Source of the DNA: Linnemannia elongata
Taxonomy: Eukaryota; Mortierellomycota; Mortierellomycetes; Mortierellales; Mortierellaceae
Direction of reading: 5' to 3'
Assembly: GCA_036320915.1 (NCBI GenBank)
Contig: JAXBDG010000002.1
Location: 1,798,001-1,862,000, forward strand
Length of the DNA: 64,000 nt
Shown: one piece after another, positions 24,105 through 47,431 of the stretch
Numbering within the stretch: position 1 is the stretch's first letter
How the letters are laid out: each line of letters opens with the position of its first letter
The notes under the pieces: generated by a model
Seen by the model: the letters and a program-made list of their open reading frames with translations, nothing else
The model's database searches: none
Told to the model about the DNA's origin: nothing
Translations under genes and position numbers: made by a program

Positions 24105-24148
24105 TGGGGGGGCGTAGTTTTAGGTTGGCCGATGGTCTGACCCCCCAC
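24105..24148 (+). repeat. G/C-run hairpin leader, copy 1
   Basis: T-G7 arm at 24105-24112, then a loop with TTGGCCGATGG, then a C6 arm at 24141-24146. It is diverged in the inner stem. It lies about 130 nt upstream of the S ORF. Confidence 0.7.
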
Positions 24149-24281
24149 CTTCAGCCTTTTCCATTACATTTTCGCACCCTTGTAAAAACCTCGACACCAG
24201 GCATTATCAAGGGTGCGATTGACGTTATCATACATGTTACACCGCTGTCCTGCGTAAGTCATTACTCACACCCATTTTATC

Positions 24282-24590: not shown

Positions 24591-24618
24591 CAACTACAAA
24601 GGCAAATTATATATACTA

Positions 24619-26145: not shown

Positions 26146-26181
<36 letters not shown>

Positions 26182-27955
26182 AAAAAATCCAAGAAAAATC
26201 CTAGCCGCGAGACGTTTTAAAGTCGTTAGAGGAGGAAATAATGTTGCTGGAAGATTCTAGAGTACACGCACTCTTAGTTAGCGCTTTGCTTGGTCGCTTG
26301 CTTTCTAGGGGACATGCAATTTTGCTTAGTTAACACCAAGGGAAGGTTTGGAAATTTAGTGGCGTTCGTCAGTTGCACGCCCTTCATCAATAGATGCAGT
26401 AAAATCATGTGATTTACGACCGATTTGATTGAATGTGACTGCGAACTATATCAGGTGATCACAGTAACTCAGGTGACCACTACAGTCGCTTTGTAATATT
26501 AGATGCCGATGGCAGTTCGAAAGGAACGGAGGTAGAAAAGTACATTGCTGAACTGCGCGATGCATTAAACCATATTGAGTTGGTCGTTGAGTCTGTAAAG
26601 CTAACCCACTCAGGCCAATTATGAGAGTGTGATGAAGATTTATACTTTTCGGAACATATGCTTAGACGCTACAGAAGATTGTTTGATAGGAAAGTATTTG
26701 CACCAGGATATACTGCCATAAAGGTGTCACTGGATTACCCCTGTGCAAAGAAAGTGATACTCATTTTGGCCAATGTGTTGCCTCATTTACAAGAGAGCTC
26801 TATAGTATTGCACGACATATATTTCGCCCATGACTGCAAGTATAATACAACTCGCGCAATCTTACGGAAACTCCTTCGAGAAACCAATACGATGGAAGTT
26901 GTGGATGATCTATGCAAAGTTGGGCACCACTGCATTTCGTGGAGGAATACAGCAGAGAACGCAAAATGCATCCGATACAAGGTGTATAACAAATTTGCGC
27001 AGATTATGGAGAGTGCCGAGGTGCGAAACAGTCTTGGTTCTCGCATGGAGGACTTGGTGGAGAAAGGGAACACATTTTCACAGCGGGCCAAACGATACAG
27101 GAAGTACGGTTATACTTGTGCTGAAATTACCTTTACGGTCCGTCATTGAGACCCCTCTGGGAATACCAAGACGAAATGGATGAGGCAAGCGCACTGTTAC
27201 AAGATTACCACACATATAAATGTTCTTTCGAAGCACAGTGGCAGGAACGAGTGAGATGCATTACGTCGATGGTGGCTCTACATTTCCAAGAGAGTAACTG
27301 TTTGCATATTACCATTGGTGGAATTCCGTTACCTCCAAGAAGTACAGATATATGTAGAAGAACGTTGACCCCGCCATTGTTCCGTTGTTGCTGGCTAACT
27401 ACTCCCTTAACGATAGACCTATATACTACATAAACGCAAGTGTGGGCGGCGAAGGTAACGTGGAGATTGGTGATACAGTAACATACATGCGAGAGCCAGG
27501 ATGTACTGCCATTACATTAGTTCCTGGTTCGCAAAAAGGCATGCTTCCTTCCAGGGATGCATGTCGTAGTGGTGGTATTCGTAAATTTTGCAATGTGGGA
27601 ATTGATGCATTTGACAATATCTCTATTGCCTGGCCAAAACGTGTTCATACCAACAATAGTGCCCCACTGGCAGAAATCATCGAATGTGAGGGTGATGATG
27701 TAGACACAAATGTTTTGCATATGAAGGCTATTCGGCCTTCGTAGTATATTGCAGTCGACCAAATTCTACAGCCGGGTATAGAGTCAGAGAGTTTCGCGGT
27801 GATCGTCGTTGGCATTTTATTACAAAGTGTGGCTTAAAGGTGCGCGCTGGAAAATCTTTGCATCACATCTGGAAAGAATGGCGTGTGGACCATTTCGTGC
27901 AATAAGAACGGTTCGTTCACGTGGCACTGATGACATCAAGTGCGAGCGCGTTTGA
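24619..27955 (+). pseudogene. R gene (unit 3), split by Helitron copy 2 and frameshifted
   Basis: N-terminal part at 24619-24788 (MLSHESLINITFNQVAHLL). The remainder begins at 26504. Removing 24789-26503 restores an exact codon series across the site (SLYSY then ADGSSKGTEVEKYIAELRDA). The downstream part shows all R family blocks: VLHDIYFAHDC, HHCISWR, IRYKVYNKFAQIMES, NSLGSRMEDLV, EITF, LLANYSLNDRPIYYI, REPGCTAITLVPGSQKGM, and ends DDIKCERV-stop at 27955. It has several frame breaks (near 26620, 27130, 27290, 27740). Convergent with the D relic; 18 nt separate them. Confidence 0.75.
24789..26503 (-). mobile_element. Non-autonomous Helitron, copy 2 (inverted relative to copy 1)
   Basis: Reverse complement of copy 1 over its full length. 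It has the same TC start (at 26503), CTAG end (at 24789) and A/T insertion site. It is shorter by 30 bp, mainly in poly(A/T) tracts. The insertion splits the R gene precisely. Because two inverted copies lie 2.4 kb apart, the pair could be mistaken for long terminal inverted repeats of one element. Confidence 0.88.
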
Positions 27956-27973
27956 TATGACAGATCTTTCTGT

Positions 27974-29198
27974 TCATACACTGGCTGCGATATCATCGCC
28001 TTTGTTTGACATTTGTTCATCATCATCTGAAACAACATCCAATCCCAGAAAGTTCTCCTGTAGCCTTAGCAACTCACGACCATTTTCCAGCTTGTTTTGC
28101 ATTGTAACTGTTTGTGTTAACCCGGAACAAGTTGCTTCTCTTGTGGATAATCCACTCTTTCATTCATCCAGGCAACTCTTCGATATTCATAGCCTGAGCA
28201 AAGTTGCGAACATTTAGCAAGAGAAGACTCAGGCTGCAAGGTTAAACTCCTTTTTGCACGCAGTTCACACAATCTCCTTGTTATTAAACTTGGTAAATGT
28301 TTTCATGAGATCCCCAAAAGTAGTCTCTGAAATGGATCGAAATCCACTAAACCTAGTATTAAAAGTGGATTCCTCTTCATAAAGTGGCTGTAGTCGTTTC
28401 TTGCGGATTGGAAAGCTCTTCTAACTGTTCTTTCTCCATAAGATCAGGTATCCGCTGTGTGTATCCACTATCAAGGGCGATACAGGCCATGCTGTCGATC
28501 TTCTTGCCAATGCCCATCTCTAGCAGCATTTTGCCATCGTTATCATCACGGCATGATGCAGATTTAGATACGAAGAGAACCATCCCATTGGCATCGATAG
28601 CATCTTGTGTTGCCAAACCTGATTTCTTGAGCTTAAACGAGTACATTGCGGCTTTATCCTCTACATATGTTGCTCGAGAATCATTACCATCCAGCATGAT
28701 TGTTACATGCTTGAATAGCTCTGGATTTTTCCAGTTGGATGTTCGAATGCGATTTTCCAAGGTTGAGAACATGGATGCAAAGCGGCGTTTAATCTCCTTC
28801 TCGAATAATGCATGCTCGGCCTTGACGAATCTGCTGTATATAACATGGAATGTAGACTTTGGCATGTACTGTGCCATGGAATCCATAGTCTCTCCAGCCA
28901 AGAAAATGTATAAACATGCAATTCCTTTCTCCATTGCATTATATGGCCCGGGGAAATAGCGTTTATTCTAAATTTTAGACAGAAAGAAAAACACCGCGAT
29001 GGATCCAAGACGCTTCTCCGACAAAGTTTTCATATCCTGTATTCTCCTAATTTGCTTAAACTCTGATCGATGAAACGTCTTGGACTTTGGACACATTGGC
29101 CAAGGCTCATCGAGAAATCCCCATTCGTACTCCAACAGCTCTTCAAACAGTCGTACAAGTTTCTTTGGCATAGGTTTATCTCCAATAGCAGTTGCCAT
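27974..29198 (-). pseudogene. D gene relic, subfamily C
   Basis: Minus-strand reading follows the split subfamily-C gene at 39621-47384. N-terminus GDKPMPKKLVRLFEELLEYE, then a frameshift near 28970, then FPGPYNAMEKGIACLY and HVTIMLDGNDSRAT with the first Asp. CIALDSGYTQ keeps the second Asp. Frame breaks follow after about 28380. It ends with a Glu/Asp tail near 27980. Inactive by frameshifts; G-to-A type changes (GHDSRA to GNDSRA) are also seen. Confidence 0.78.
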
Positions 29199-29318
29199 GA
29201 CTTTGCATTTGGCAAAATAGGGAGCTACACACAGAAAAATCTCAATTATCCCTTGATTTCACAAGCGATGGATGTTAAACAAAGGGATGGGTATAGCATT
29301 ACAACAGCCGTAATACAA

Positions 29319-29354
29319 CCTGAGACCATCGGCCAAACCAAAGCTTCACCCCCC
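29319..29354 (-). repeat. G/C-run hairpin leader, copy 2 (decayed)
   Basis: Reverse orientation. G6 arm (29349-29354 as C6 on plus) and the loop TTTGGCCGATGG are retained, but the matching C-run is lost (reads CTCAGG). Confidence 0.55.
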
Positions 29355-29711
29355 ATTGGTCTCCCATTTAGACTACATAAAAGATACATATATCATGACA
29401 CTCTTTCCGCACGTTTGTTTTTGGAATACAGCTAGATAACCCCATCCATCAGAGATTCGTTGCTTTCGTATCTGTACTCTTTTTAAAAACTCCATCCTTA
29501 TTTATATTTACTGCCACTGTATAATACGTATGACCATTGGGACCAACACGACTCCCAGTGGAGGGCATCTTGGACTGTGGGGGAACGATCACGGGTGTTC
29601 TACATCTTGTGTGCAGCCTTCAAGATTACAAAGCAACATTTATTTCTAATTGTTGGCATTCAAGACTTGAAGCAACACAACATGAGCAGCTTTTTCGGAA
29701 AATAATACAAT

Positions 29712-30597
29712 CGACAGGGGAAATCGTCTGTATCCCTAATACAATAGGAAGCACCAAAGAAGGGCGATCGCCTATAATTTCGGGCAGCTTTTAAAAAGTA
29801 GGGATACAGGAGTCAGAGGGTTTGTATAGATGGGAGTGGTGGGTAAGAAGAGGCGGATAATATGGGTGGTGGTGCAAAGGAGAGGCAAGTGGTGTTTCGG
29901 GGAGGGGGGTGGCTTTCCACTGGCCGATGCTTACGACCCCCCCTTGGTCCACTTGAGGTGTATTTGGAGATGTCTCTTGGCTGTGCAGTGCTGTCTCTGA
30001 GCATCTCCCCGGGCAGGTATTGGAACCCGCTTTTGCTGGTACAATAGACGAATCTTGAATAGTTAGCTGAGGGTAAGTTGTGGCGGTAGTCCATCAACGT
30101 ACCCCCTCCAATGTCTGAGTCCAAATTTCCAAAAAAAAAAAAAGCTCAACGCCTGCTTGAATGCAATACTTGTGGAGGAATGAGGATTTCTTGAGAATCC
30201 ACGGCCATTGTACCTTACCACCAAAAAGTTCCACCGATCGGAGCTCAAGCCAATTAACAACATGCAGCACATGAAGAAGGAGGTCATAGGCAAAATAGGA
30301 GCCATTGGTGAGCTCTTCTTTCCCACAACCCTTTGGAACAAGGTGCATTTCTCAGGTCCATACAAAGCAGTGGAGAAAGGTATTGCCTTCCTGTACTATC
30401 TTGTTTCAGGCGAGTCTATGGAGTCCATGTCTGTGTTTTTGTCGAGGTCTAGCTTCTATGAGATCCACAGAACTTTCTTCAAGACCGAGAAGAGGCTGTT
30501 TGAGAAGGAGATGACGAGATGTTTTGCCAACATGTTTTCCACGCCTGAAATCCGTATGAGGTCCGCCGCATGGGGTAAGCCACAGATGTTCAGGCAT
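29712..30597 (+). mobile_element. Type-1 leader plus truncated D gene (chimeric fragment, copy 1)
   Basis: Type-1 terminal leader (TAATACA..GGAAGCACC near 29735, CTTTTAAAAAGTAGGG near 29790, the hairpin, then the conserved GGTGTATTTGGAGATGTCTC block) followed by the first third of a subfamily-A D gene. It breaks at 30597 exactly where the GGGAGTCATCC terminus of unit 1 begins. The same chimera recurs at 50573-51470. Confidence 0.75.
29904..29943 (+). repeat. G/C-run hairpin leader, copy 3
   Basis: G6 arm, loop CTTTCCACTGGCCGATGCTT, C7 arm. One mismatch in the inner stem. Confidence 0.75.
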
Positions 30598-30620
30598 GGG
30601 AGTCATCCGGGTCCAGTATA
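30111..30620 (+). pseudogene. Truncated D gene, subfamily A
   Basis: Starts ATGTCTGAGTCC like the intact gene at 34981. An A13 run near 30130-30143 shifts the frame. The frame resumes through FHRSELKPINNMQHMKKEV and FSGPYKAVEKGIAFLYYLV to MFRHG, where it runs into the terminal repeat and stops at 30619-30621. All three catalytic acidic residues would lie downstream and are absent. Confidence 0.8.
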
Positions 30621-30781
30621 GAGGGGCTTTGCATGATGTGTGAGAGGATGCTGCATAGGTGAACATATGTTTTAAAAAGTAGGTACCGGGGATGGATGAG
30701 TCCAGGATAGAGGGGAACGTACAGTAGATCTGGGTAAAAGAAGAAAGCTATGAGAGGTTGTGCTGCATGAAAGACCTCGAA

Positions 30782-30824
30782 GGGGGGGTTGTAGCTTTAC
30801 TCTGGCTGATGCCCTCAACCCCCC
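30782..30824 (+). repeat. G/C-run hairpin leader, copy 4
   Basis: Stem GGGGGGTTG with CAACCCCCC, loop containing CTGGCTGATGCC. Part of the left leader of unit 1, about 100 nt upstream of S. Confidence 0.8.
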
Positions 30825-30928
30825 TATGGTGTTATCCATTGCTGATGACCTACGGTATATGGGTGATGTACAGGTAAGGAATGACAAATCGGCGGTATGG
30901 TAGACAAGGTGCCCCAAAGACAACAACA

Positions 30929-31210
30929 ATGCCTATTCCAGATACACATAAATCTTTGCAGCAGAATGTCGTCGCCGAATTTATCACGGACCATCGCTTA
31001 GAGACCTGTTTGTATGTGTACCTTGATGCATTCATGGATATTCACCGCGCTAACTCTCCTGACTTTGGGGAAACCTGGTGTCCACATACTATCTACTCGA
31101 TGCTGGAAAAGGTATACAAGGGTATCCGACGTGAACTCTCTGAGAAAGGACTGTTGACCAATGAAGCTGCTGGTGAGTACCTTATACGCACTGAGTCGAA
31201 GGCCACCTAA
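30929..31210 (+). CDS. S protein, unit 1
   Basis: About 93 codons from MPIPDTHKSLQQNVVAEF. An upstream in-frame ATG at 30881 exists, but the start at 30929 matches the MPVSHEKSFQQ start of other copies. Conserved blocks are HRLETCLYVYLDAFMDIHRA, EKVYKGIRREL and LLTNEAAGEYL. It is predicted helical with no known domain. The codons for AAG-GEY spell a perfect splice donor (CTG|GTGAGT) in three of four copies, so S may be the first exon of an S-R fusion instead of a separate protein. R starts 33 nt after the S stop. Confidence 0.55.
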   Translation: MPIPDTHKSLQQNVVAEFITDHRLETCLYVYLDAFMDIHRANSPDFGETWCPHTIYSMLEKVYKGIRRELSEKGLLTNEAAGEYLIRTESKAT

Positions 31211-31215
31211 GAGAG

Positions 31216-31224
31216 TTTTAAAAA
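31216..31224. promoter_or_regulatory. TTTTAAAAA palindrome at the S/R junction, unit 1
   Basis: Lies 6 nt after the S stop and about 20 nt before the R ATG. Confidence 0.5.
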
Positions 31225-31243
31225 GCAAGAATCCATTAACAAC

Positions 31244-32931
31244 ATGTCACGGTCAAAGGAGGCTATAATCAACGAGATCCTCAATAAGTACACGCACAAC
31301 CTTGCCGGCGTTGGCCAATGTGGTCGTCTTGGAGCTACCAAACGCCAGGGGTTCACACGGTTCTCCAAGACGTTCTGTGACAGTATGGTCTTTTGGGCTC
31401 CGGTCAACTCTGCCGATGAAAAGGTCAAGGGTAAGTCCATTGGCAAATATTTTGCTGACTTACGTGAAGCATTTGGCAAGGCGGATCTACCTTACGATTC
31501 CATCAAATCGCTGCATAGTGGCACTCTGCTGGACCATAAGTATATCTCAGCTGACATCCAAACCGCACATGCACAAGAGAATAGCAATGGACCATACTCT
31601 GCCGGATTTATCTCTATCATGGTGTCTCTCTACCATTGCCGTGCCAAAAAGGTGGTCATGGCCATGGTTGCCATCCTGCCTGTCCTTCGGAAGCGGTACC
31701 TTGTCCTGCATGACATCGACATGACGCATGACTGCAGGTATGTATCAACCCGGACCTATTTGGAGAGGCACTTGAAGGCTAAGGGCATTTCAACGATAGT
31801 CAACGATCGCGGACGTGTGGGTGACCATTGCGTGACCTGGTTTGCTCCTGCAGACAATGCCCAAAAAATCAGGTACAAGGTCTATAACAAGCTGGTCCAG
31901 ATGCTCGGAAGCGCGGATGTGCGAAAGAGTCTCGGCTCAAGGATGGAGAATATAGTTGCCAATCCAGATGAGAAGTTCACCAGGACTCTATTGCGCCGAG
32001 GGATCATGGCCTTTCACGGCTGGAGTTAACCTTTATGGCTCAAGGCTGCACCCTCTGGCAGTCTACCGAGATAGGACGGATGATGCGCGTAGACTTTTGG
32101 AGGGCTGCACCACGTTTGACTACAGCTATGAGCAACACTGGATAGAACGTGCTGAGCTTATAAAGGCCATGGTCGTGGTGTATATCCCTGGAAGCAAGGT
32201 CTTTGCATACTGCCACTAGTGGAACTCCACAACCCGCAAGATGTACGGCTATACGTGGTCCAAAGTTTCAGCGCCGCTTGCCATGCACCTGGTTGCCAAC
32301 TACTCGTTCAACGACCGTCCCATCTACTATGTGGAGGCCAAAGTTAGCGAGAATGGTACAGTGGAGGTCACCAAGGAGAAGATGTATGAGAGAGAGCCAG
32401 GCTGCAAGGCCAAAACATTGGTACCAGGTGGTTCCAAGGGTATGTTCCCCTCATACGCACTGTTCGACCGCGAAGTATATAAGTTTGCCGACATGGGTAT
32501 TGTACCTGTGGGCAATATCCGCATTGGATGGCCAAAGAGGCGATACCACAAGGAGAGTGCACCATTAGCTGTCCTTGTGGAGCACTGACCTGATGATGGG
32601 CAGTATGTTAAGCATATGCGGAATATGCACTCATCTACCTTTGGAACCGGCCACAATGTGCTTGAGCCAGGTCGCATATATACATACCATTGCAGCAGCA
32701 GGCCTAAAGGAGGTTCGCGGTGCCTTGTACTGGCATATAATTATGGACTGTGGTACCAGAGTTAGGGCCGGCAAGTCCCTCAGTGCCCTGTGAGAAAGGT
32801 GGCGGGGAAAATATAGGGGAACGAATGGCCAAGTAAGAATCCACCATGTGCCAAAGATGACCTTCCTTGCAGAACGCATAGTCCGCTCCAAAGGCACAAA
32901 CGACATGAAGTGTAAGCTGGTCCATAAGTAA
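31244..32931 (+). pseudogene. R gene, unit 1, near-complete with two breaks
   Basis: About 560 codons of R. N-terminal helix MSRSKEAIINEILNKYTHNL; VLHDIDMTHDCRYVSTRTYL; VNDRGRVGDHCVTWFAP; IRYKVYNKLVQMLGSADVRK; SLGSRMENIV. The frame shifts near 31990-32030 where LTFYGS follows. An in-frame TAG sits at 32217-32219, where other copies read the second Trp of CHWWNS. A further frame change is near 32585, and the end is KCKLVHK-stop. The KVYNK ... RLELTFYG spacing recalls the YdK ... RvE core of Rep_trans-type replication initiators, but this is a weak, hand-seen resemblance. Confidence 0.7.
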
Positions 32932-32943
32932 CGTACGGTAAGG

Positions 32944-32953
32944 TTTTTAAAAA
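32944..32953. promoter_or_regulatory. TTTTTAAAAA palindrome between convergent R and D, unit 1
   Basis: Perfect 10-nt palindrome, 13 nt after the R stop and 31 nt from the D stop. A bidirectional terminator/poly(A) role would fit but is not shown. Confidence 0.5.
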
Positions 32954-32983
32954 CTTGGTACATGCTGTTACAGAAATCAGGCC

Positions 32984-34192
32984 CTACAGTTCCTCGTCAT
33001 CCTCCGACATGTCCATTCCCAAGAACGCGTTCTGGAGTTCCTGTAGTTCAGATCCATTCTGTAGCCTATTTTGGACAGTCTCTACCTCGGAGTTCTGCAG
33101 GACAGGCTTATTGGTGGTTGGATAGTCGAATCCATCCTCTATCCATTCCATATGGTGGGGCAGTATATCCAGGCTGAGGTTGTTGGACATATTACGTACA
33201 TTTAGCAGCAGAAAGCACAGCCGCAACATCATGTTAACCTCCCTCTTGTCGGTGGTACGGATGGCGTCTTTATGGTTGAACTTGGCGAAGGTGGATCCGA
33301 GGTCGCCAAAGGTATTTTCAACCATAGACCTGAATCCTGCGAACATCGTATTAAAGGTAGCCTCATCCTCATCCAAGGGCTGTCCATTGCGCTTACGTAT
33401 GGGAAAACAAAAGTTGCGAATATCCAGGGTGTCCTCTTTCTCCAGGAGCTTGGGTATATGTTGTGGGTATCCACCATCAAGGCCAATGCAGTCCACCTCA
33501 TGAATCCTTTTGGCCACACCCATGTCAACCAGCATGGTACCATCGTTGTGTTTCTTACATGACTCGGACTTGGACACAAAGACCACCATGTTGTTGACGT
33601 CTATGCATACTTGTGTGCGGAGGCCTGACTTCCTGAACTTAAAGTTGTACATCTCCGACTTTAACTCCCCGTAGGTTGCCCGTGTGTCATGGTCATCCAG
33701 CAGCAGTGTTACATGCTTGAACATCTTTGGGTTGCTCCATCTGGCCGATCGCATGCGTATCTCCGGGGTGGAAAACATGGTTGAAAAGCACCTTGCCATT
33801 TCCTTGTTGAACAGGCTCCTTTCCTCCTTGAAGAACGTGCGAAAGATCTCATAGAAGGAAGACCTGGGCATGAACACCGACATGGACTCCATGGATTCTC
33901 CAGGGACAAAAAAGTATAAGAAGGCAATACCCTTTTCCAGTGCCTTATACGGACCGGGGAAGTATACTTTATTCCACAGGACCGTCAGGAAGAAGTATAC
34001 CGCAACAGCCCCCAGCTTGGACATAACCGCTAATTTCATGTGTCGCATACCCTTGATGACCTTGAACTCAGACCGGTGTGCCCTACGAGTTTTTGGGTAC
34101 ATTGGCCAGGGATCATCCAAAAAGGTCCACTCATCCTGGATAATCGACCTGAACAAATCTTGTAGATTTTCGGGAACGTTGCCGCTTGACAT
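32984..34192 (-). CDS. D protein, unit 1: DDE nuclease of the DDE_Tnp_4 (Harbinger/IS5-like) type
   Basis: Intact 402 codons, no introns. An N-terminal helical domain (LFRSIIQDEWTFLDDPWPMY, EFKVIKGMRHMKLAVMSKLG) precedes the RNase-H-like core. First Asp in HVTLLLDDHDTRATY, second in VDCIGLDGGYPQHIP, Glu in FRSMVENTFGDLG. FCFPIRKRNGQPLDEDEATF precedes the Glu, as in Harbinger nucleases. The C-terminus is acidic (GMDMSEDDEEL). Family knowledge: such enzymes cut and join DNA during transposition, and Harbinger elements need a partner DNA-binding protein. R or S may play that part (inference). Confidence 0.85.
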   Translation of the reverse strand: MSSGNVPENLQDLFRSIIQDEWTFLDDPWPMYPKTRRAHRSEFKVIKGMRHMKLAVMSKLGAVAVYFFLTVLWNKVYFPGPYKALEKGIAFLYFFVPGESMESMSVFMPRSSFYEIFRTFFKEERSLFNKEMARCFSTMFSTPEIRMRSARWSNPKMFKHVTLLLDDHDTRATYGELKSEMYNFKFRKSGLRTQVCIDVNNMVVFVSKSESCKKHNDGTMLVDMGVAKRIHEVDCIGLDGGYPQHIPKLLEKEDTLDIRNFCFPIRKRNGQPLDEDEATFNTMFAGFRSMVENTFGDLGSTFAKFNHKDAIRTTDKREVNMMLRLCFLLLNVRNMSNNLSLDILPHHMEWIEDGFDYPTTNKPVLQNSEVETVQNRLQNGSELQELQNAFLGMDMSEDDEEL

Positions 34193-34300
34193 GTTTGTGT
34201 TTTATATCCAGTAATTACCTGGTCTACCATACCGCATTTGTCATTCCTTACATGTACATCACCCATATACCGTAGGTCATCGGCAATGGATAACACCAAA

Positions 34301-34345
34301 GGGGGGTTGAGGGCATCGGCCAGAGTAAAGCTACAACCCCCCCCC
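34301..34345 (-). repeat. G/C-run hairpin leader, copy 5
   Basis: Right leader of unit 1, inverted. G9 and C6 runs as read on the minus strand, loop CTCTGGCCGATGCC, about 110 nt upstream of the D start. Confidence 0.8.
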
Positions 34346-34775
34346 TTCGAGGTCTTTCATGCAGCACAACCTCTCATAGCTTTCTTCTTTTACCCAGATC
34401 TACTGTACGTTCCCCTCTATCCTGGACTCATCCATCCCCGGTACCACCTTTTTAAAACATAGGCTCATCTATGCAGCATCCTATCACACACCTTGCAAAG
34501 CCCTTCTAACTGGACCCGGATGACTCCCACTTCTTTTGCCCAGATCTACTGTACGTTCCCTCCATCCTGGACCCATCCTGCCCGGTACCACCTTTTTGAA
34601 ACATATGCTCATAATACATGAGGAAGCACCATAGGAGTGGTCGATCGTGTATAATTTCAGGCAACTTTTAAAAAGCATGGATACAGGAGGCAGAGGATTT
34701 GTATAGATGGTAGTGGTGGGTAAGAGGAGGTGGATAATATGGGTGGTGGTGTAAAGGAGAGGCCAATGGAGGTTC

Positions 34776-34818
34776 GGGGGGGTTGTAGCTTTCCACTGGC
34801 CGATGCTTACAACCCCCC
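34776..34818 (+). repeat. G/C-run hairpin leader, copy 6 (best stem)
   Basis: Perfect 11-bp stem GGGGGGTTGTA / TACAACCCCCC with the loop GCTTTCCACTGGCCGATGCT. About 160 nt upstream of the D start of unit 2. Confidence 0.88.
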
Positions 34819-34980
34819 TTTGGTCCATTCGAGGTGTATTTGGAGATGTCTCCTGGCTCTGCAGTGCTGTCTCTGAGCATCTCCCCTGACATGTATTGGA
34901 ACCCGCTTTTGCTGGTATCATAGGCCCATCTTGAATGCTCTGGGTATGGCAGGTGTGGAGGCCTTTCTTCAACATACCCA

Positions 34981-36186
34981 ATGTCCGAGCCCAAAATCCC
35001 AAAGAAGCTCAACGCCTGCCTGAATGCAATACTCGCGGAGGAGTGGGGTTTTCTTGACAATCCATGGCCATTGTACCCTACCACCAGAAAGTTCCACCGA
35101 TCGGAGCTCAAGCCAATTAACAACATGCACCACATGAAGGAGGAGGTCATAGGCAAGATAGGAGCCATTGGTGTGTTCTTCTTTCTCACAACCCTTTGGA
35201 ACAAGGTGTATTTCTCAGGTCCATACAAAGCAGTGGAGAAAGGTATTGCCCTCCTGTACTATCTTGTTTCAGGCGATTCTATGGAGGCCATGTCTGTGTT
35301 TTTGCCTAGGTCTAGCTTCTATGAGATCTACAGAACTTTCTTCAAGACCGAGAAGAGGCTGTTTGAGAAGGAGATGACGAGATGTTTTGCCAACATGTTT
35401 TCCACGCCTGAAATCCGCATGAGGTCTGCCGTATGGACTAACCCACGGATGTTCAGGCATATTACACTGCTGCTGGATGGTCATGATACCCGGGCAACAT
35501 ATCGCGAAACCAAGGCCAAGATGTACTCATACAAGCTTAAGAAGTCTGGCCTCAGGACCCAGGTGTGCATAGACATCAACCACATGGTGCTCTTTGTCTC
35601 CAAGTCCGCTCCATGTAAAGACAACAACGACGGCAGCATGATGGTAGAAATGGGCCTGGCAAACAAGATCCATGAGATGGACTGTGTAGGTGTTGATGGC
35701 GGATATACACAGCATATCCCTACCCTGCTTGAACGTGAGGACTCTCTGGATGTAAGGAACTTTTGCTTCCCTATCCGCAAGAAACCGGGACAGGACTTGG
35801 ACGAGCATGAGGCCTTATTTAACTCCGAGTTCGCTGGCTTCAGGTCCATGATCGAGGCCACATTTGGGGATCTTGGGCGTACATTTAGAAAGTTCAACAA
35901 CAAGGAGTCCATACGTACTACAGACAAGAAGGAGGTTAACATGATGATGCGCCTATGTTTCCTGCTGATGAATGTCCGTAATATGTCCAATTCTCTTAAC
36001 CTTGAGGTACAACCCCACCATATGGCATGGGCAGAGGATGGGTTTGACTATCCACGTAAGCAGTCTGTCTTGGTGCAGTCCCAGGTAGCCACGGTGCAAA
36101 ACAGGCTGGAGAGCGGTGCAGAGCTGTTGCGACTACAGGAAGAATTCCTTGGGATGGATCTGTCAGATGAGGATGAGATGATCTGA
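34981..36186 (+). CDS. D protein, unit 2: DDE nuclease of the DDE_Tnp_4 type
   Basis: Intact 401 codons, no introns, clearly paralogous to the unit-1 D. N-terminal helical region (LNACLNAILAEEWGFLDNPW), then HITLLLDGHDTRATYRE (first Asp), DCVGVDGGYTQHIP (second Asp), NFCFPIRKKPGQDLDEHEA and FRSMIEATFGDLG (Glu). Acidic C-terminus FLGMDLSDEDEMI. It starts right after a leader shared with the S-R side, so both transcription units of one element probably use the same promoter type. Two TTTTTAAAAA palindromes follow the stop. Confidence 0.86.
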   Translation: MSEPKIPKKLNACLNAILAEEWGFLDNPWPLYPTTRKFHRSELKPINNMHHMKEEVIGKIGAIGVFFFLTTLWNKVYFSGPYKAVEKGIALLYYLVSGDSMEAMSVFLPRSSFYEIYRTFFKTEKRLFEKEMTRCFANMFSTPEIRMRSAVWTNPRMFRHITLLLDGHDTRATYRETKAKMYSYKLKKSGLRTQVCIDINHMVLFVSKSAPCKDNNDGSMMVEMGLANKIHEMDCVGVDGGYTQHIPTLLEREDSLDVRNFCFPIRKKPGQDLDEHEALFNSEFAGFRSMIEATFGDLGRTFRKFNNKESIRTTDKKEVNMMMRLCFLLMNVRNMSNSLNLEVQPHHMAWAEDGFDYPRKQSVLVQSQVATVQNRLESGAELLRLQEEFLGMDLSDEDEMI

Positions 36187-36192
36187 GCCAAG

Positions 36193-36241
36193 TTTTTAAA
36201 AACCTGTGCCATGCTACGACCTACGTCCAAGTTTTTAAAAA
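36193..36241. promoter_or_regulatory. Duplicated TTTTTAAAAA palindrome between convergent D and R, unit 2
   Basis: Two copies (36193-36202 and 36232-36241) in a short near-repeat (CAAGTTTTTAAAAACC), between the D stop and the R stop. Confidence 0.5.
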
Positions 36242-36262
36242 CCTATGCCACGCTACCACCAT

Positions 36263-38004
36263 CTAAGTCCTCACCAAGACGCACTTCACGACAGACATAC
36301 CTCTGATTTTAACCTTTCTCTCTGCCAAAAACCTCATCTTGGGGATTTTGTGTATGAGAACCCCGCCATGGTTTCCTCTGTATTGGCCTCTCCATCTTTC
36401 CCAGATGCCTTCAAGGGACTTTCCAGCCTTGACCTTGAGGCCACATTCGGTGACCAAGTGCCAGTAGCTGTTTCCCCGGAAATCTGCCAACCCTGCGGCA
36501 ACAACGGTATATTCTGTGCCTGGGACAAGGATGTTGTAATCAGCAGTAAACAAGGTGGAGTGCGGCTTCTTCATCCACCAGACATATCCTTCATGGCTAT
36601 CGGATGTAGGCTTCTCAACAAGGATTGCTAATGGCCTACTCTTCTTGCTATGCTTCTTCTCAGGCCATCCAATGGAGATATTCTTATGCTCCACAATGCC
36701 AACCTCCGAGAACTCGTAGACAAGTCCCTCACAGGTGTCTCGAGAGGGAAACATGCCTTTGGTCTTGCCAGCCACCAATGTCATGGCTGTGCATCGAGAT
36801 TCCCTCTCGTAGACCTTTTCGCTGATAATCTCCACCACTCCAGCGTCATCCACCTTGACCTTGATGTAATGGATAGGCCTGTCGTTGAAAGAGTAGTTGG
36901 CCAGCAGCAGGGGAACAAGTTTGGATCCAACGTTCTTCCACATGTATCCATACTTTTTGGAGGTCACCGAGTTCCACCAATGGCAGTAGGCAAAGACCTT
37001 CTTGGCAGGTATATGCACTGCGACCATGGACTCTATGTAGTTGGCCCTTTCTTTCCACATCTCCTCATAGCTGTAGTCATAGACACGACAAGTGCTCAGC
37101 AGGGCCCTTGCATCAGCCAAGTGGGCCAGGTACTCGTCCAAAGACAACAAGGTACTACCATAGAATGTCAGCTCCAGGCGGGACATCCCATGGTCCTTGT
37201 GGCGAAGCAGCCTTGCCATGAATCTTTTGTCATCATCAGCTACAAGACCCTCCATCCTTGACCCAAGACTCTTACAAAACCTCAGCGCTCTCTAGGATCT
37301 GTACAAACTTGTTGTAGACCTTGTAGCGGATGTTCCTGGTGTCATCTGAACTGCCCATCCAGGAGATACAATGGTCACCCACACGACTACGGTCCTTGAT
37401 GACTGTGGTGATACCATTCCGCAACAGATTTTGCTCAACAAGACGACGTTCTGTGACATATCGACAGTCGCGGGTCATGTTTATGTCATGAAGTACCATA
37501 TGCTTGCATCTGAGGGTCTCCAGCATGGGTGACAATGCCAACACAGCCCTCTTTGCTCGGCACTGTTTCAGGGACATCTTAATGGCAATGTACCCCATGT
37601 GGAGGGACTGTCCAGCAAACTCTGCGGCGTACGCTTCCTTCATTTCCTCTGAGAAATACTCCTCGCCTTTTTTTTTTTTTTTTTTTTGGGAACGTCAATG
37701 AGAAATACTCCTCGCCGATATTTGTACCCGTAGTAATCATCTTAATAGAGTCACAGGGCAAGGAGTGCCTACTACAAAGCTCACGCAACTCTGCCATGTA
37801 CTTCCCAATGGTTACTCCCTTGGTGTCCTCTGACAAGGTATTGTAAAGTCCCCACATAACCAAGCTGTCGCAAAACATCTTGGAAATCTTTGCAAAGCCC
37901 TGTCTACTCTCTCTGCGGGAACAGGACTGCCTACCAAAGTCAGCCAAATTACCGATGTACTTCTTAAAAACCTCGTTGATAATGGACTCGTTTGATCTTG
38001 TCAT
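36263..38004 (-). pseudogene. R gene, unit 2, one frameshift plus an A-tailed insertion
   Basis: Longest readable R. Start MTRSNESIINEVFKKYIGNL at 38004. A 49-nt insertion lies at 37668-37716. Then VLHDINMTRDCRYVTERRLV, DRSRVGDHCISWMGS and IRYKVYNKFVQILESAEV, followed by a one-base insertion near 37283. The rest, 37255-36263, is open: MSRLELTFYGSTLLSLDEYL, FAYCHWWNSVTSKKYGYMWK, LLLANYSFNDRPIHYIKVKV, GMFPSRDTCEG, ISIGWPEKKHSKK, VVAAGLADFRGNSYWHLVTE, GLKVKAGKSLEGIWERWRG. The C-terminal 330 residues match no family I can name. The first half recalls Rep_trans proteins only weakly. Confidence 0.72.
37650..37716 (-). mobile_element. Short A-tailed retroposed insertion with 18-bp target duplication
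   Basis: On the minus strand: GGCGAGGAGTATTTCTCA, TTGACGTTCCC, about 20 A, then GGCGAGGAGTATTTCTCA again. A poly(A) tail between identical 18-bp repeats is the mark of target-primed reverse transcription. The same insertion, with about 24 A, occurs in the R fragment at 50235-50304. Confidence 0.8.
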
Positions 38005-38026
38005 GGTTGAAGTGTGTTTGGGCAAA

Positions 38027-38036
38027 TTTTTAAAAA
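38027..38036. promoter_or_regulatory. TTTTTAAAAA palindrome at the S/R junction, unit 2
   Basis: Perfect palindrome in the 36-nt gap between the S stop and the R start on the minus strand. Confidence 0.5.
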
Positions 38037-38040
38037 CCAC

Positions 38041-38325
38041 TCAGGCCAACCATGGCTCACTGGATCGATTCATCACATACTCACCAGCTGCCTTATTTGT
38101 AAGAAGTCCGTGTTTTAGGAGCTCTACGCGGATACCTTTGTAAACCTGCTCTAACATCTCATACATAGCATAGGGATCCCATCTGTCCACAAGGTCAGGA
38201 TACTTAGCGCGATGGGTATCGAGGAATGCATCGAGGTAAACAAACATACAGTACTCAAGACGATGATCATCTACAAATTCGGCGACAACATCCTGCTGGA
38301 AAGACTTTTCATGGGAAACAGGCAT
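38041..38325 (-). CDS. S protein, unit 2
   Basis: About 94 codons from MPVSHEKSFQQDVVAEFVDD. Contains HRLEYCMFVYLDAFLDTHRA, YEMLEQVYKGIRVELLKHGL and LLTNKAAGEYVM. Same helical pattern as the other S copies. The codons for Ala-Gly-Glu-Tyr include GCTG|GTGAGTATG, a consensus 5' splice site. R follows 36 nt downstream. Confidence 0.58.
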   Translation of the reverse strand: MPVSHEKSFQQDVVAEFVDDHRLEYCMFVYLDAFLDTHRAKYPDLVDRWDPYAMYEMLEQVYKGIRVELLKHGLLTNKAAGEYVMNRSSEPWLA

Positions 38326-38493
38326 GATGATATATTGGGTACCAGTGCGACGTCCACAACCCGCCAACGCAGAGCATTCAAGATGGGCCTATGATACCAG
38401 CAAAAGCGGGTTCCAATACATGTCAGGGGAGATGCTCAGAGACAGCAATGCATAGCCAAGAGACATCTCCAAATACACCTCGAATGGACCAAA

Positions 38494-38537
38494 GGGGGGG
38501 TGTAAGCATCGGCCAGTGGAAAACTACACCCCCCCCC
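38494..38537 (-). repeat. G/C-run hairpin leader, copy 7 (compensatory stem change)
   Basis: Stem on the minus strand GGGGGGGTGTA / TACACCCCCCC. The T:A pair of copy 6 is replaced by G:C on both arms, while the loop CCACTGGCCGATGCT is unchanged. This is the clearest covariation. Confidence 0.88.
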
Positions 38538-38745
38538 AAACCACCATTTGCCTATCCTTTGCACCACCACCCATATTATCCACCTACTCTTACCCACCAC
38601 TACCATCTATACAAATCCTCTGCCTCCTGTATCCATGGTTTTTAAAAGTTGCCTGATATTATACACGATCGACCACTCCTATGGTGCTTCCTCATGTATT
38701 AGGGATGTGGACGATTGCCTAAATAAGTACCCTCAGAGCTAGCAG

Positions 38746-39459: not shown

Positions 39460-39502
39460 GGGGGGGGGGGAAGCTTTGGTATGGCCGAGGGTCTCACCCC
39501 CC
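39460..39502 (+). repeat. G/C-run hairpin leader, copy 8
   Basis: G11 and C6 runs, loop GGTATGGCCGAGGG. Upstream of the subfamily-C D gene (start 39621). Confidence 0.7.
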
Positions 39503-40160
39503 TTTGTTACCAATTTCGTACACTATTGTTAGACTTTTTAAGCTTACCGTGGCAGATAGATGCAAAGGATGAATTGACGTTATTATGTGGGTAAAACCTG
39601 TCTTTCGTTGAAATGCAAAAATGGAGCCTGACACCAGAGATAAACCTATGCCCAAAAAACTTGTGCGACTGTTTGAAGAACTGTTGGAGAACCAATGGGG
39701 ATTTCTTGATGAACCTTGGCCAATGTGTCCAAAGATCAAGACGTTTCATCGTTCAGAGTTGAAGTCCATTACAAGAATACAGGATATGAAGGCCTTGTTG
39801 ATGAGGCGGCTTGGATCCATCACCGTGTTTTTCTTTCTGTCTAAAATTTGGAGCAAACACTATTTTCCTGGACCATATAATGCGTTGGAGAAAGGAATCG
39901 CCTTTCTTTATTTTTTCGTGGCTGGAGAAACCATGGATTCCATGGGGCAGTACATGCCAAAGTCCACATTCCATGCCATTTACAGCAGATTCGTCAAGGT
40001 CGAGCATGCATTGTTCGAAAAGGAGATTAAACGATGTTTTGCATCCATGTTTTCGTCTTTGGAAATTCGCATTCGAACATCCAACTGGAAAAATCCACGG
40101 CTATTCAAGCATGTAACAATCATGTTAGATGGTCATGACTCGCGGGCAACGTACGGAGAG

Positions 40161-41154
40161 GGCGACCATCCAAGCATAAGATATACAGCATAGACTTTTA
40201 AAAACAAGGAATATACCTTGCGCATTAGCTTCCACTTGTATTTATCACCTGGTTCTAATCTCCAAGTACAAGTTACATGCAGAGCACCTGCACCAAACTT
40301 TTATACTCTAGCCTGTCGATGATATTACATTGCGAATAATCTGCTCATGTTTCGTTGCATTACGTCTTGAATGTCAGGCGACCATCCAAGCATAAGATAT
40401 ACAGCATAGACTTTTAAAAAACAAGGAATATACCTTGCGCAATAGCTTCCACTTGTATTTATCGCCTGGTTCTAATCTCCAAGTACAAGTTACATGCAGA
40501 GCACCTGCACCAAACTTTTATACTCTAGCCTGTCGATGATATTACATTGCGAATAATCTGCTCATGTTTCGTTGCTTCACGTCTTGAATGTCAGCAATTA
40601 GAAATAAATGTTGCTTCATACTCTTGAAGGCTACACACAAGATGTAGACCACCCGTGATCTTTCCACCGACAGTCCACGATGCCTTCCACTGTGATAACA
40701 TGGAGAACGAACAGAGATTTCGTGTGGACATCATCTAGTCTCAACAGGGATTGCTATAGTATACCTGCTCACCATGACTTGATTCCACCATGAATCCTGC
40801 TTGTTGATGACCTTGATGTTTTTAAAAATATACAAGATATGCAATAGTATGAGCTAGCCTAAAATATTCCCCTCAGCAATTAGAAATAAATGTTGCTTCA
40901 TACTCTTGAAGGCTACACACAAGATGTAGACCACCCGTGATCTTTCCACCGACAGTCCACGATGCCTTCCACTGTGATAACATGGAGAACGAACAGAGAT
41001 TTCGTGTGGACATCATCTAGTCTCAACAGGGATTGCTATAGTATACCTGCTCACCATGACTTGATTCCACCATGAATCCTGCTTGTTGATGACCTTGATG
41101 TTTTTAAAAATATACAAGATATGCAATAGTATGAGCTAGCCTAAAATATTCCCC
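40161..41154 (+). repeat. Left terminal array A-A-B-B
   Basis: A units of about 216 bp start at 40161 and 40377; B units of about 281 bp start near 40594 and 40875. A contains GACTTTTAAAAA, and B ends with ATGTTTTTAAAAATATACAA followed by GCTAGCCTAAAATATTCCCC. Confidence 0.85.
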
Positions 41155-41840
41155 TAGCTGATACGATCTCTACCCACACATTCACGGCATAAAAAAACAC
41201 ACCAATAACTGTGTAAGTGGATTTTCACGAAATAAACGATGTGTATTATACTACACCCTATTTTCACAACACATTCACATCACGAAGCTACCAATACATT
41301 TATGACATAAAAAACTCACCAATAATTGTGTAAGTGGATTTTCACGATTTAGACAGTTCTTATACATAATCCCATGCAGACGCGACACATCTTTTCCATT
41401 TTAACATCTGACAAAGCAACCCATACATTCATGGGTTTTTTATCTCTGTCTTATTTTTTTAAAACCTTACCAATAACTGTGTGAGTGGATTTTCACGAAG
41501 TACGCGATACATGTTTCTGTCTGTTCCATCATGAAATAGCTGATACAAATCTCTATCGGTACGATACAACCATTCACGAAATAAACGATCCATCTGCTTA
41601 TCTGATGCATCATGAAATAGCTGATGCAAAACCTTGTAGGAGTTACGATACATTCACGAGAATAACGATAGAAATAGTTTGTTTTGCAAAACTGCTAGAT
41701 AACCAACACGACCATTCATGCTTAAGATCCATGGCATGAACGTTTTAAAAGGGGGTCCATGCTCTGATCTATAACCTACACTGATGGCTACTATACCAAT
41801 AACCTATTACACGATAAAACATCTTGTATGCATGTTGTCT
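41155..41840. repeat. Imperfect repeats of about 125 bp, no gene
   Basis: Recurring phrases ACCAATAACTGTGTAAGTGG and TTTTCACGAAATAAACGAT (near 41205, 41315, 41470, 41560) and CATGAAATAGCTGAT (near 41529 and 41610). No convincing ORF. Two TTTTTAAAA motifs (41457, 41743). Confidence 0.6.
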
Positions 41841-41912
41841 TTAGTAGGCGGGAATAGTTACAAAAATATCTGATCTTTTCGACCATGAATCCTGACTGTT
41901 GATGAGTGTATC

Positions 41913-42230
41913 CTACTGGTCCATGGTTAACTTTCTAACTTTTTTTGTCAGCTTGGAAATTTCTTTATCCATATTCTCAACGTGTTCTGCAAGGTCTTGT
42001 ACTATTGCCACTTGTTTTTTTAGTTGTTTAACATAGCTTTGATGGCTCTTTAGGATCTTGTCTTGTTTCTCCAATATTTTGTCGATCTTGTCATGCATCG
42101 AGACAAGACCAACCTTTCTGCGAGTGACTGCCAAGGCTACGGCACATTTTTTACATGTGGTAGGATTTGTTTTATAAAAATCCTCTGCCTCTTTTCGTAC
42201 TTTACACTCTACACATTTTTTCTGTGACAT
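41913..42230 (-). CDS. Small zinc-ribbon plus coiled-coil protein
   Basis: 105 codons. N-terminal Cys pairs KKCVECKVRKEAEDFYKTN and TCKKCAVAL form a likely four-Cys zinc ribbon (CxxC-x15-CxxC). From residue 45 there is a continuous heptad-like coiled coil (HDKIDKILEKQDKILKSH, then NMDKEISKLTKKVRKL). No family name can be given. Such ribbon/coil proteins occur in phages and large DNA viruses, but also in transposons. It is divergent from the D gene downstream, with a TTTTTTAAAAAA palindrome between. Confidence 0.6.
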   Translation of the reverse strand: MSQKKCVECKVRKEAEDFYKTNPTTCKKCAVALAVTRRKVGLVSMHDKIDKILEKQDKILKSHQSYVKQLKKQVAIVQDLAEHVENMDKEISKLTKKVRKLTMDQ

Positions 42231-42504
42231 TGTATGTTATTCGGCCCAAGCGTGTTTTTTGCCTTCTTATCACTCCATTTTGTCTATTCTAAATTATTGG
42301 ATAACCTCGCGTGTTTAGACTACATGTAGTGCTACTTGCCTTCCACTAAACCACCAACAATAGTATATTTTTTTAAAAAACATGTAATGTGCTTTCAAGC
42401 CTTTTGCATAACATAATATTTTACAGCTGATGTGCGATATAGGATAATAGTAAGACACTGACACATTCACCAACAGCAAAACCTATAAAAGAGGAAAGTA
42501 CATC

Positions 42505-43806
42505 ATGACTTTAAATCAGCATTTCAACCACCTTCTCGACAAACAATGGTTGTTTCTTGAGGAAGGGTGGCCATTTGTTCCAGTAAGCACAAACAATCGT
42601 ACTGTTAACAAGGAGGTAGCATTCATGAAAACTATAAAGTCCACACTCATGGCGCGTCTTGGTGCCATTCCAGTCTTTTTCTTTCTTACAGTTATATGGC
42701 CAAATGTAAAGTACCCTGGCCCGTATCGTAAAGTAGAGAAGGGTCTTGTGCTTCTTTACCATTTGGTGAAAGGTGCATCTATGGAACAAATGTCGCCGTT
42801 TCTTCCAAAGAGCAGCTTCTTTGCTGTCTATTCCACGTTTTACAAGACAGAATATACCGCGCATGACAAGTTTATTACATCTTGTCTTGCCAACATGTTC
42901 TCAACAATTACCATTCGTCTCTTGTCAGCTAATAAGAAGAATCCTCCGCTCTTTAAACAAGTTACATTGCATCTTGATGGCCATGATACCAGGGCGACCT
43001 ATCAAGGTGAGACTTCTGCAGAGATGTATTCTTACAAGCTAAAGAAATCTGGTCTGCGCACTCAAGTCGTAATGGACTGTAATGGTATGGCACTATGGGT
43101 GTCCAAGTCTGCATCATGTAAAAACTATGCTGATGGTACAATGTTGCTCTCGATGAAGTTGGATAAAAAGATGCATGCAATGGATTGTGTGGCTGTTGAT
43201 GGAGGGTACACACAGTTTTTAAAGACACTAGCCGAAAAGTCTGATCTTACTTTGCATAACTTTACACATCCATTTCGAAGGAAGAAACATCAGGATCTGA
43301 CCTCACAAGAGACCGAGTACAACTCTATATTTGGAAGCTTTCGTTCACAGATGGAGGCACTATTTGGAGAACTAGGCAGTGTGTTTGAGCGACATAACAA
43401 CCGAGCTCCTATAATTACAGAGAAGAAGAATACATACAACCTACAGATGAAGTTGGCCTTGCTGCTTTTAAATATCAAGAGAATGGTAGCAATGTTAAAG
43501 CTTACTTCTGAGCCAATTCATACATCTTGGATGCGTGATGACTTCGACTACCCAGGCGAGAACCAAGATGTCGAACAAACAATGGACTACTTTCCTATAA
43601 ATGCATTACTGGAGGATGGTGATACCATGGCAAGGATGCAAGAAGAGTTTTTGGGTATGGCCATTGGTGATGAAGACATTACAATGGACCATATGCAGGA
43701 ACACGCCACCATTGGTTTTGCGATCCCCAGATGGAGTGCAAAACGTAAATCTGCAGCCATGACGAATAAGACGCAAGATGCAGATGGTGAGGATCATGAT
43801 CTGTAA
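42505..43806 (+). CDS. D protein, subfamily B, carried by the 6.5-kb element
   Basis: Intact 433 codons, no introns. N-terminal helical part (LNQHFNHLLDKQWLFLEEGW), YPGPYRKVEKGLVLLYHLV, QVTLHLDGHDTRATYQGE (first Asp), DCVAVDGGYTQFLK (second Asp), NFTHPFRRKKHQDL, FRSQMEALFGELG (Glu). A longer tail with an acid patch and KRKSAAMTNKTQDADGED distinguishes it from subfamilies A and C. CTATAAAAG lies only 15-21 nt upstream of the ATG. Likely the transposase of the 6.5-kb element. Confidence 0.86.
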   Translation: MTLNQHFNHLLDKQWLFLEEGWPFVPVSTNNRTVNKEVAFMKTIKSTLMARLGAIPVFFFLTVIWPNVKYPGPYRKVEKGLVLLYHLVKGASMEQMSPFLPKSSFFAVYSTFYKTEYTAHDKFITSCLANMFSTITIRLLSANKKNPPLFKQVTLHLDGHDTRATYQGETSAEMYSYKLKKSGLRTQVVMDCNGMALWVSKSASCKNYADGTMLLSMKLDKKMHAMDCVAVDGGYTQFLKTLAEKSDLTLHNFTHPFRRKKHQDLTSQETEYNSIFGSFRSQMEALFGELGSVFERHNNRAPIITEKKNTYNLQMKLALLLLNIKRMVAMLKLTSEPIHTSWMRDDFDYPGENQDVEQTMDYFPINALLEDGDTMARMQEEFLGMAIGDEDITMDHMQEHATIGFAIPRWSAKRKSAAMTNKTQDADGEDHDL

Positions 43807-43944
43807 GAACTTTTTACAAATATGCACAAGGATGATGCCTTTTAGTTTTTTTTAAAAAAGTGCTTAGATGCTACTCGTCTTGTTGTTGTAGGAATATCTA
43901 ACAGATATTTTATTTCTTCCAATTTTCCGATAACAATTATAAGC

Positions 43945-45858: not shown

Positions 45859-45880
45859 AACCTTTTTAAAACCTTTACTA

Positions 45881-47426: not shown

Positions 47427-47431
47427 GCTTC

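Follow-up and report, generated by a model that had tools for sequence, protein, structure and literature searches.

A 64-kb stretch of the Linnemannia elongata genome (contig JAXBDG010000002.1, here C12, positions 1798001-1862000; 'the window', in whose own coordinates positions are given below) contains two neighbouring units of about 4 kb, U1 and U2. Each unit carries three genes: S and R in tandem, converging on D, enclosed by terminal inverted repeats (TIRs). The two units are in opposite orientations. We lean towards reading them as DNA transposons, in which D is the predicted inserting DDE transposase and R is likely a Rep_trans-type initiator that would nick a hairpin in the TIRs. The features of the two units are as follows:

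30598-34528, + strand: unit U1 (S-R> <D), 3931 bp, ends GGGAGTCATCC...GGATGACTCCC, the same as in the isolated copies L044 and L045
30598-30910, + strand: U1 left TIR, about 313 bp
30782-30824, + strand: U1 left hairpin, G-run stem, loop core GTAGCTTTACTCTGGCTGATG; DNA fold z -2.67
30929-31210, + strand: U1 gene S, 93 aa counted from this ATG; the open frame begins at 30881
31216-31224: palindrome TTTTAAAAA in the S/R gap of U1; other U1 copies at 30670, 32944 and 34449
31244-32931, + strand: U1 gene R, broken, kin of intact 565-aa R copies
32984-34192, - strand: U1 gene D, open, 402-aa DDE_Tnp_4 nuclease (Pfam E 2.5e-9)
34217-34528, - strand: U1 right TIR
34301-34344, - strand: U1 right hairpin, inverted; identified by its sequence core
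34612-38719, - strand: unit U2 (D> <R-S); its left end is short of the terminus by about 18 nt
34612-34959, + strand: U2 left TIR
34776-34818, + strand: U2 left hairpin; DNA fold z -3.59
34981-36186, + strand: U2 gene D, open, 401-aa DDE_Tnp_4 nuclease (Pfam E 8.4e-13)
36193-36202: palindrome TTTTTAAAAA in the D/R gap of U2; other U2 copies at 34666, 36232, 38027 and 38639
36263-38004, - strand: U2 gene R, broken
38041-38325, - strand: U2 gene S, 94 aa; modelled as helical, at low confidence
38353-38719, - strand: U2 right TIR
38494-38537, - strand: U2 right hairpin, inverted; DNA fold z -2.62

The TIRs were 94.0% identical in U1 (315 aligned columns) and 94.6% identical in U2 (350 columns, the unit being taken as 34612-38701; the right end is traceable in the sequence to 38719). 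In the four units measured their length was 311-350 bp. These repeats and the gene coordinates agree with an earlier reading of the locus (the sequence-only reading), which had proposed the S-R-D layout in opposite orientations between inverted leaders of about 300 bp. U1, L044 and L045 each have four copies of a TTTT(T)AAAA(A) palindrome: one per TIR, one in the D/R gap and one in the R/S gap. U2 has five, the extra one in the D/R gap. R is disrupted in U1 by a frameshift near 32.0 kb and by stops near 32218 and 32587, and in U2 by a frameshift near 37.27 kb and, at about 37.67-37.71 kb, by inserted poly-T together with a short duplication; the relatives L030 and L031 lack this insertion. Other loci in the genome carry intact R genes of 563-565 aa; those compared gave 16 distinct sequences. 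In the isolated copies L044 (C1:2474000-2480000) and L045 (C28:616800-622500) D, R and S are all complete, and the TIRs are 98-99% identical. Some units (L018, L033, L011) have an additional 259-bp copy of the terminal segment, resulting in two GGGAGTCATCC ends in succession.

Three D proteins of the window matched PF13359 (DDE_Tnp_4) above cut-off. The candidate triad D166, D239 and E292 (U2 numbering; our own assignment) was at least 97% conserved in 108 D proteins, namely U2 and those 107 of 120 listed relatives that have at least 380 aa. The sequence-only reading had recognised Asp, Asp and Glu in DDE_Tnp_4 spacing. By its sequence D belongs with the DDE_Tnp_4 nucleases of the PHIS superfamily (PIF/Harbinger, Pangu, ISL2EU, Spy, Nuwa) and is the predicted transposase. 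D has 189 relatives; among the 120 listed, the named ones come from Mortierellomycota and from Apophysomyces, and a chromodomain is present in many of the more distant relatives. There was no match to D among the PDB sequences, and no D pattern was found in the IMG/VR viral contigs.

Sequence searches with R were largely negative. Pfam yielded no family for the R of L044 or for the R relative P0004, and the lack of a Myb pattern in R and S, noted earlier, was confirmed by the absence of a Pfam Myb match; the idea that R is a Myb protein was rejected. For 69 R members Pfam gave matches to 56 families; the 25 listed were scattered and had E values no better than 0.006. The PF02486 (Rep_trans) profile did not match the R of L044 (hmmscan), was not among these 25 listed families and had no match in the genome search. 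The best E against PDB sequences was 0.14 with the single sequence and 1.4 with a profile, and the NCBIfam search gave no informative match. In IMG/VR and in one genome per bacterial and archaeal species R patterns were present, and no relative was found. A tblastn search with the R relative P0083 found nothing in phages and two places in plasmids (E 3 and 6). Profile-profile comparison was unsuccessful for R and also for our own positive control, and has little weight against a Rep_trans assignment. The possibility, raised by the sequence-only reading, that R and S are ordinary host genes received no support, because neither matched a named family.

Structure prediction, suggested for R by the same reading, was performed on P0004. 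AlphaFold2 (69 sequences) produced a confident model, with a mean predicted local distance difference test score (pLDDT) of 93.7 and a predicted template modelling score of 0.86. The model resembled the TATA-binding protein (TBP; 1mp9, E 7.4e-4) and the Rep_trans structures 4cwe (E 3.8e-3, rank 5) and 4cij (E 7.7e-3, rank 7) in a Foldseek search of the PDB. In BFVD the sixth-ranked match was the inovirus Rep A0A8S5Q7Q4 (E 7.7e-4), and the eighteenth was A0A345MNV4 (E 3.0e-3), a protein named as a PF02486 initiator (PMC13107129). The catalytic residues of Rep_trans proteins have been published, and their sheet has been likened to that of TBP (PMC4797284, PMC5714925).

The Rep_trans motifs described in the same two papers are N′ (Asp), I (RxD), II (T/SxY/ExG), III (YxKxxE) and IV (W/LxRxE) (PMC4797284, PMC5714925). 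R has the pattern D48, DxD162x[A/T]xD166, KxY217xK219xxQ222 and RxE263. D162, K215, Y217, N218, K219, Q222, R261 and E263 were present in 69/69 R sequences, D48 and D166 in 68/69 each. In the P0004 model the candidate residues are distributed over separate strands, and Q222 falls in the helix that comes next. Counterparts of motifs N′, III and IV are present in R as D48, YNKxxQ and [LYMFI]-[ST]-R-x-E, respectively; RepSTK1 also has Q in its YxKxx motif III (PMC4797284, PMC5714925). R differs from the Rep_trans proteins in the lack of a significant PF02486 match, and neither the Arg of motif I nor motif II is clearly kept. Motif I reads DxDx[A/T]xD (metal Asp in 69/69, A or T in 64/69, second Asp in 68/69), and its Arg position is occupied by D (67) or S (2); in the place of motif II there is a strand with CxS[WFY]. 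Features of HUH nucleases were not seen: Y217 is on a strand, not on a helix, and there is no HUH motif among the invariant or nearly invariant columns of R. The C-terminal half of R (residues 300-562, P0004 numbering) has conserved motifs of its own, F-x-Y-x-H-W-x-N and LANYSFNDRP.

Of the 69 R relatives one, P0083, matched phrog_702, the M13/IKe gene II family, with E 1.6e-6. Our own 10-sequence alignment for this family gave P0083 a score of 9.5 bits; among 475 controls, reversed or shuffled, the highest score was 1.7 bits. A regular expression derived from RepDE and RepSTK1 matched 56/75 R proteins of at least 480 aa, 0/7500 shuffles and 0/120 D proteins. The same expression recognised 1/14 RstA-type and 0/10 gene II proteins; being specific but insensitive, it is no proof of Rep_trans membership. 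Pf1 ORF430 and B5 Orf9 were discarded as phage controls, the former having no Pfam family and the latter being a Rep_1 protein.

The predicted fold and the conserved residues suggest that R is likely a Rep_trans-type rolling-circle initiator. Y217 would be the nucleophile, and D48, D162 and E263 would hold the metal. Initiators of this kind are known from phages and bacterial plasmids, and R would probably be the first eukaryotic example: a literature survey, covering mostly openly readable papers and not Repbase, found no eukaryotic Rep_trans protein and no such fungal element. The sequence-only reading had spoken of two unknown partners of the nuclease; this still holds for S and probably no longer for R. 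R could also be a non-catalytic, TBP-like DNA-binding partner of the transposase, in a role comparable to that of the Myb-like protein of Harbinger, and the units plain cut-and-paste elements. However, the eight residues invariant in 69/69 sequences agree, both in their order and in the strands they occupy, with the greater part of the catalytic residues of Rep_trans. Why a protein that only binds DNA should preserve them is not evident, and P0083 matches a replication-protein family. We consider the binder explanation unlikely.

Searching the genome (51.1 Mb, 32 contigs) gave 103 D, 84 R and 67 S matches, of which 74 D, 60 R and 59 S rows were used for the linkage counts. Of 45 R matches longer than 300 aa, 43 face a convergent D at a distance of 47-223 bp, and S accompanies 36 as well. 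D, R and S co-occur at other loci of this genome, and the layout, present in 36/45 long R matches among the rows counted, is more than chance. R was found beside 42/55 D matches longer than 350 aa and downstream of 43/59 S. The sequence-only reading had held that D, R and S lying apart would speak against it; this is in part the case, as 13/55 long D have no convergent R within 400 bp.

Among public proteins 12/95 R pair with one of the 120 listed D by identical contig size, and all 12 pairs share at least one source. Ten pairs are on short contigs, versus a mean of 2.0 and a maximum of 8 in 2000 trials of the null. In Haplosporangium the two members of a pair carry neighbouring locus tags (BGZ52_005333 and BGZ52_005334), and an L. 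elongata contig of 271981 bp with R and D also bears S (P0098). The R and D distances of 11/12 pairs were correlated with a Mantel r of 0.92, and 0/9999 permutations were as high; the 271981-bp pair was left out because its R and D are short. R and D are therefore co-inherited across species. Selection was assessed by comparing 16 distinct intact R and 22 D sequences. Between U1-type and U2-type R the nonsynonymous divergence (dN) was 0.37-0.39 and synonymous sites were saturated (proportion of synonymous differences 0.77-0.80); for D, dN was 0.22 and the synonymous divergence 2-3. Both D and R are under strong purifying selection.

Both ends of the U1 subfamily (GGGAGTCATCC) could be read at 12 copies; two more copies gave one end only. 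A 3-bp target duplication was present at 3/12 copies: AAT at L044, AAT at L045 and TTA at a copy near C1:4481.4 kb. The other 9/12 copies had no target duplication, and several of the copies start or finish within other copies. L044, on C1, sits in a gene (L044 582-930) that we take to resemble a Crinkler-type effector. L045 interrupts a gene that we label F-box-like, and whose paralogues show the empty site. Joining the L045 flanks at one copy of the repeat restored an open frame, which aligned to paralogue L174 with no gap at the junction; paralogue L175 has a gap a few residues ahead of the junction, and L176 lacks one residue right at it. The duplications and the L045/L174 empty site make insertion with a 3-bp duplication well supported for the isolated copies. 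The arrays have been reshaped since insertion.

Among the 62 strongest D matches (from about 400 bits upwards), 49 lay no more than 40 kb from a contig end, against an expected share of 5%; the remaining 13 include three on C2, whose distance to the end was not scored. Eight contig ends were inspected for telomeres. Five had an array, with the unit mostly CCCTAAAAAA, and at 4/5 of these ends a transposon end motif was found 59-247 bp from the array. The elements likely lie mostly near chromosome ends. At the array-bearing ends (L046, L048, L049, L050, L034) the number of A in CCCTAAAAAA is variable; this repeat differs from TTAGGG, the usual telomere repeat of fungi.

This location raises the question whether the units spread mainly through recombination of subtelomeres, transposition being old or rare. 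Near-identical copies on many contigs, the 9/12 copies without target duplication and the copies beginning or ending within others are in line with such a history. It accounts poorly for the two isolated copies inside host genes, with TIRs 98-99% identical and 3-bp duplications, and for the purifying selection on R and D, and we regard it as quite unlikely.

If R is a Rep_trans-type nickase, as we favour, its target may be found in the TIRs. The TIRs diverge between subfamilies except for one stretch (direct repeat family D7) composed of a G-run, the loop core GNAGYTTTNNNNTGGCYGAKG and a C-run. Allowing up to 2 mismatches, the core was found at 10 places in the window, and every one of them lies within the terminal repeat of a unit or a partial unit. 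It is inverted in U1, U2 and the degenerate unit 3, and was not found, at this stringency, at the right end of the degenerate unit 4 (both listed below). Three of the four U1 and U2 hairpins, folded as DNA, outdid shuffled sequences (z -2.6 to -3.6), and so did the fold at 49416 (z -2.7); those at 24105 (z -0.23) and 39461 (z -1.7) did not do so clearly. The proposed register gave 75.6% pairing, and slid registers did not exceed 68.0%; at one pair T-A is replaced by G-C. The covariation score was equalled by 45/500 shuffles, so support for the hairpin is modest. Because Rep_trans origins present the nick site in a hairpin (PMC5714925), the TIR hairpin is, by analogy, likely the nick site of R.

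An active nickase might also serve to process ends, by nicking or resolving the TIR hairpins or by helping insertion near telomeres, with no rolling-circle replication. A hairpin at both ends of U1, U2 and unit 3 would suit this function, as would the proximity of the best D matches to contig ends and of the end motifs to the telomere arrays. Known relatives, as described in PMC5714925, are replication initiators or relaxases, however, and the isolated copies distant from contig ends are complete. End processing as the sole function of R appears very unlikely.

The window contains further units and one related element:

24105-29357, + strand: degenerate unit 3, remnants of S, R and D; inverted hairpin cores at 24114 (+) and 29327 (-)
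29719-30597, + strand: partial unit, left TIR and first part of D; truncated by the left end of U1
39461-48600, + strand: degenerate unit 4, D split at about 40160/46659; C-terminal part of R at 47432-48493 (-); hairpin core at the left end only
40160-46659: R-less element splitting the D of unit 4; its D, about 50% identical, at 42505-43806; 637-aa protein at 43945-45858; 105-aa protein at 41913-42230 (-)

Units 3 and 4, announced by the sequence-only reading at 24.1-29.4 and 39.4-48.6 kb, were located by D, R and S matches; unit 4 is interrupted by the R-less element at about 40160-46659. The 637-aa protein of this element is acidic with cysteine clusters, the 105-aa protein is a Cys-rich coiled-coil, and the element is flanked by direct repeats of 283-bp tandem copies (40376-41155 and 45880-46659). 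Nine of the 13 long D without R form one subfamily (about 50% identical). In place of R and S, all nine, the window copy included, are followed by a match to the 637-aa protein, which starts 268 bp downstream of D; one match is partial. The hairpin core, with up to 3 mismatches, was found neither in 40160-46660 nor near the second copy of the element in 8 kb of L046. These nine D indicate that the D lineage exchanges partners and that R is tied to hairpin-bearing units. The combination of the ~50% identical D and the 637-aa protein was rejected as part of the three-gene unit: it has neither R nor S, and the window copy and the examined part of L046 have no hairpin core.

The junction of the cut D with the U1 end is present twice in the window (30598 and 51471), with D cut at the identical place, showing that the segment with the truncated unit was duplicated. 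At 48711-49222 a 241-bp sequence, built of 90-bp tandem copies, is repeated perfectly in inverted orientation after a 30-bp spacer. One 92-aa stretch is encoded twice in opposite orientation (20874-21332 and 25797-26216), as a dispersed repeat outside the units.

S matched no Pfam family. Its AlphaFold2 model has three helices (pLDDT 68.9), and a relative with 94% identity is present in Linnemannia elongata. Our guess for S is an accessory role, or DNA binding, by a small helical protein.

Small DNA replicons can have a Rep of the phage type and long inverted ends, and the units might be integrated viruses or linear plasmids rather than transposons. Yet the three genes gave no capsid or polymerase family match, a DDE transposase and 3-bp duplications are present, and searches of viral contigs, phages and plasmids recovered no relatives at the sensitivity applied. 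We give this origin hardly any credence.

Among known transposons Pangu elements share with the units a DDE transposase of the same superfamily, a GG start of the TIR, possibly the target duplication (AAT at two copies here) and a further, motif-less open reading frame (ORF), and with an average of about 3.5 kb are similar in length to our ~4-kb units (PMC4482050). As described, Pangu elements have a 5′-ANT-3′ target duplication and TIRs of 11-40 bp, usually starting with AG or GG (PMC4482050). The U1-subfamily start GGGAGTCATCC fits the AG/GG rule; the duplications were AAT at two copies and TTA at one, with none at 9/12. Compared by description, the units differ from Pangu in their 311-350 bp TIRs, the TTA at one copy, three genes and the Rep_trans-like R. 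PIF/Harbinger elements also have a PHIS-type nuclease, an accessory gene and a 3-bp duplication (TTA at one copy fits TWA; AAT was found at two), but they, like Nuwa, have a Myb/SANT protein where R and S are found here. Other fungal PHIS elements, described in PMC12730594, have three proteins and no Myb, but a TET/JBP gene. The sequence-only reading had left the choice between a PIF-Harbinger/IS5 branch and a different system. The units are TIR-bounded mobile elements with a PHIS-type nuclease, as the former implies; the predicted fold and conserved residues of R suggest that they are more than a Harbinger variant.

The Rep_trans proteins (pT181 RepD, RepSTK1, ICEBs1 NicK, inovirus RstA) and M13/IKe gene II (Phage_CRI) appear to resemble R in a TBP-like sheet, as predicted for R, and do so in the ordered D / DxAxD / YxKxx[E/Q] / RxE residues and in the candidate catalytic Tyr on a strand. 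R differs in being eukaryotic, in its location within a DDE transposon and in its extra C-terminal half (~300-562). Helitrons, and likewise Replitrons, are eukaryotic transposons thought to use a rolling-circle nickase; they encode HUH nucleases and are not known to have a DDE transposase or long TIRs. ICEBs1 and Tn916 are bacterial and conjugative, and their integration enzyme is a tyrosine recombinase, not a DDE transposase. As proposed for the units, they combine an integration enzyme with a Rep_trans relaxase, which replicates the excised element (PMC5714925). The Rep-Arvir proteins of archaeal viruses and plasmids also have a Rep_trans-like fold recognisable from structure alone, but belong to archaeal replicons and have a KHYYM motif in place of YxK (PMC13107129).

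In the mechanism that we propose, D would cut and insert the element, as expected from its family and from the target duplications. R would nick the TIR hairpin through Y217 and prime the copying of either the donor or an excised form, and more copies would be available before reinsertion. By analogy with NicK acting on ICEBs1 (PMC5714925), D may excise or copy the unit, and R may drive the replication of the excised form. We put forward this scheme, and the hairpin as its nick site, less firmly than the assignment of R itself. Tentatively, and with somewhat less than an even chance of being right, the units might represent a new class of eukaryotic transposons, in which DDE cut-and-paste is joined to a Rep_trans-type initiator amplifying the free form, similar to an integrative plasmid in the nucleus. 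In Pangu elements the second ORF, which has no known motif, may likewise encode a protein of the R kind.

If R is what it appears to be, a eukaryotic member would extend the Rep_trans fold family to all three domains of life. A transposon adding its own replication step to cut-and-paste would bear on how such elements gain copies, which is otherwise explained by host repair. The proposal also offers a testable identity for the motif-less Pangu ORF, and a nicking assay with one protein and one hairpin would be tractable.

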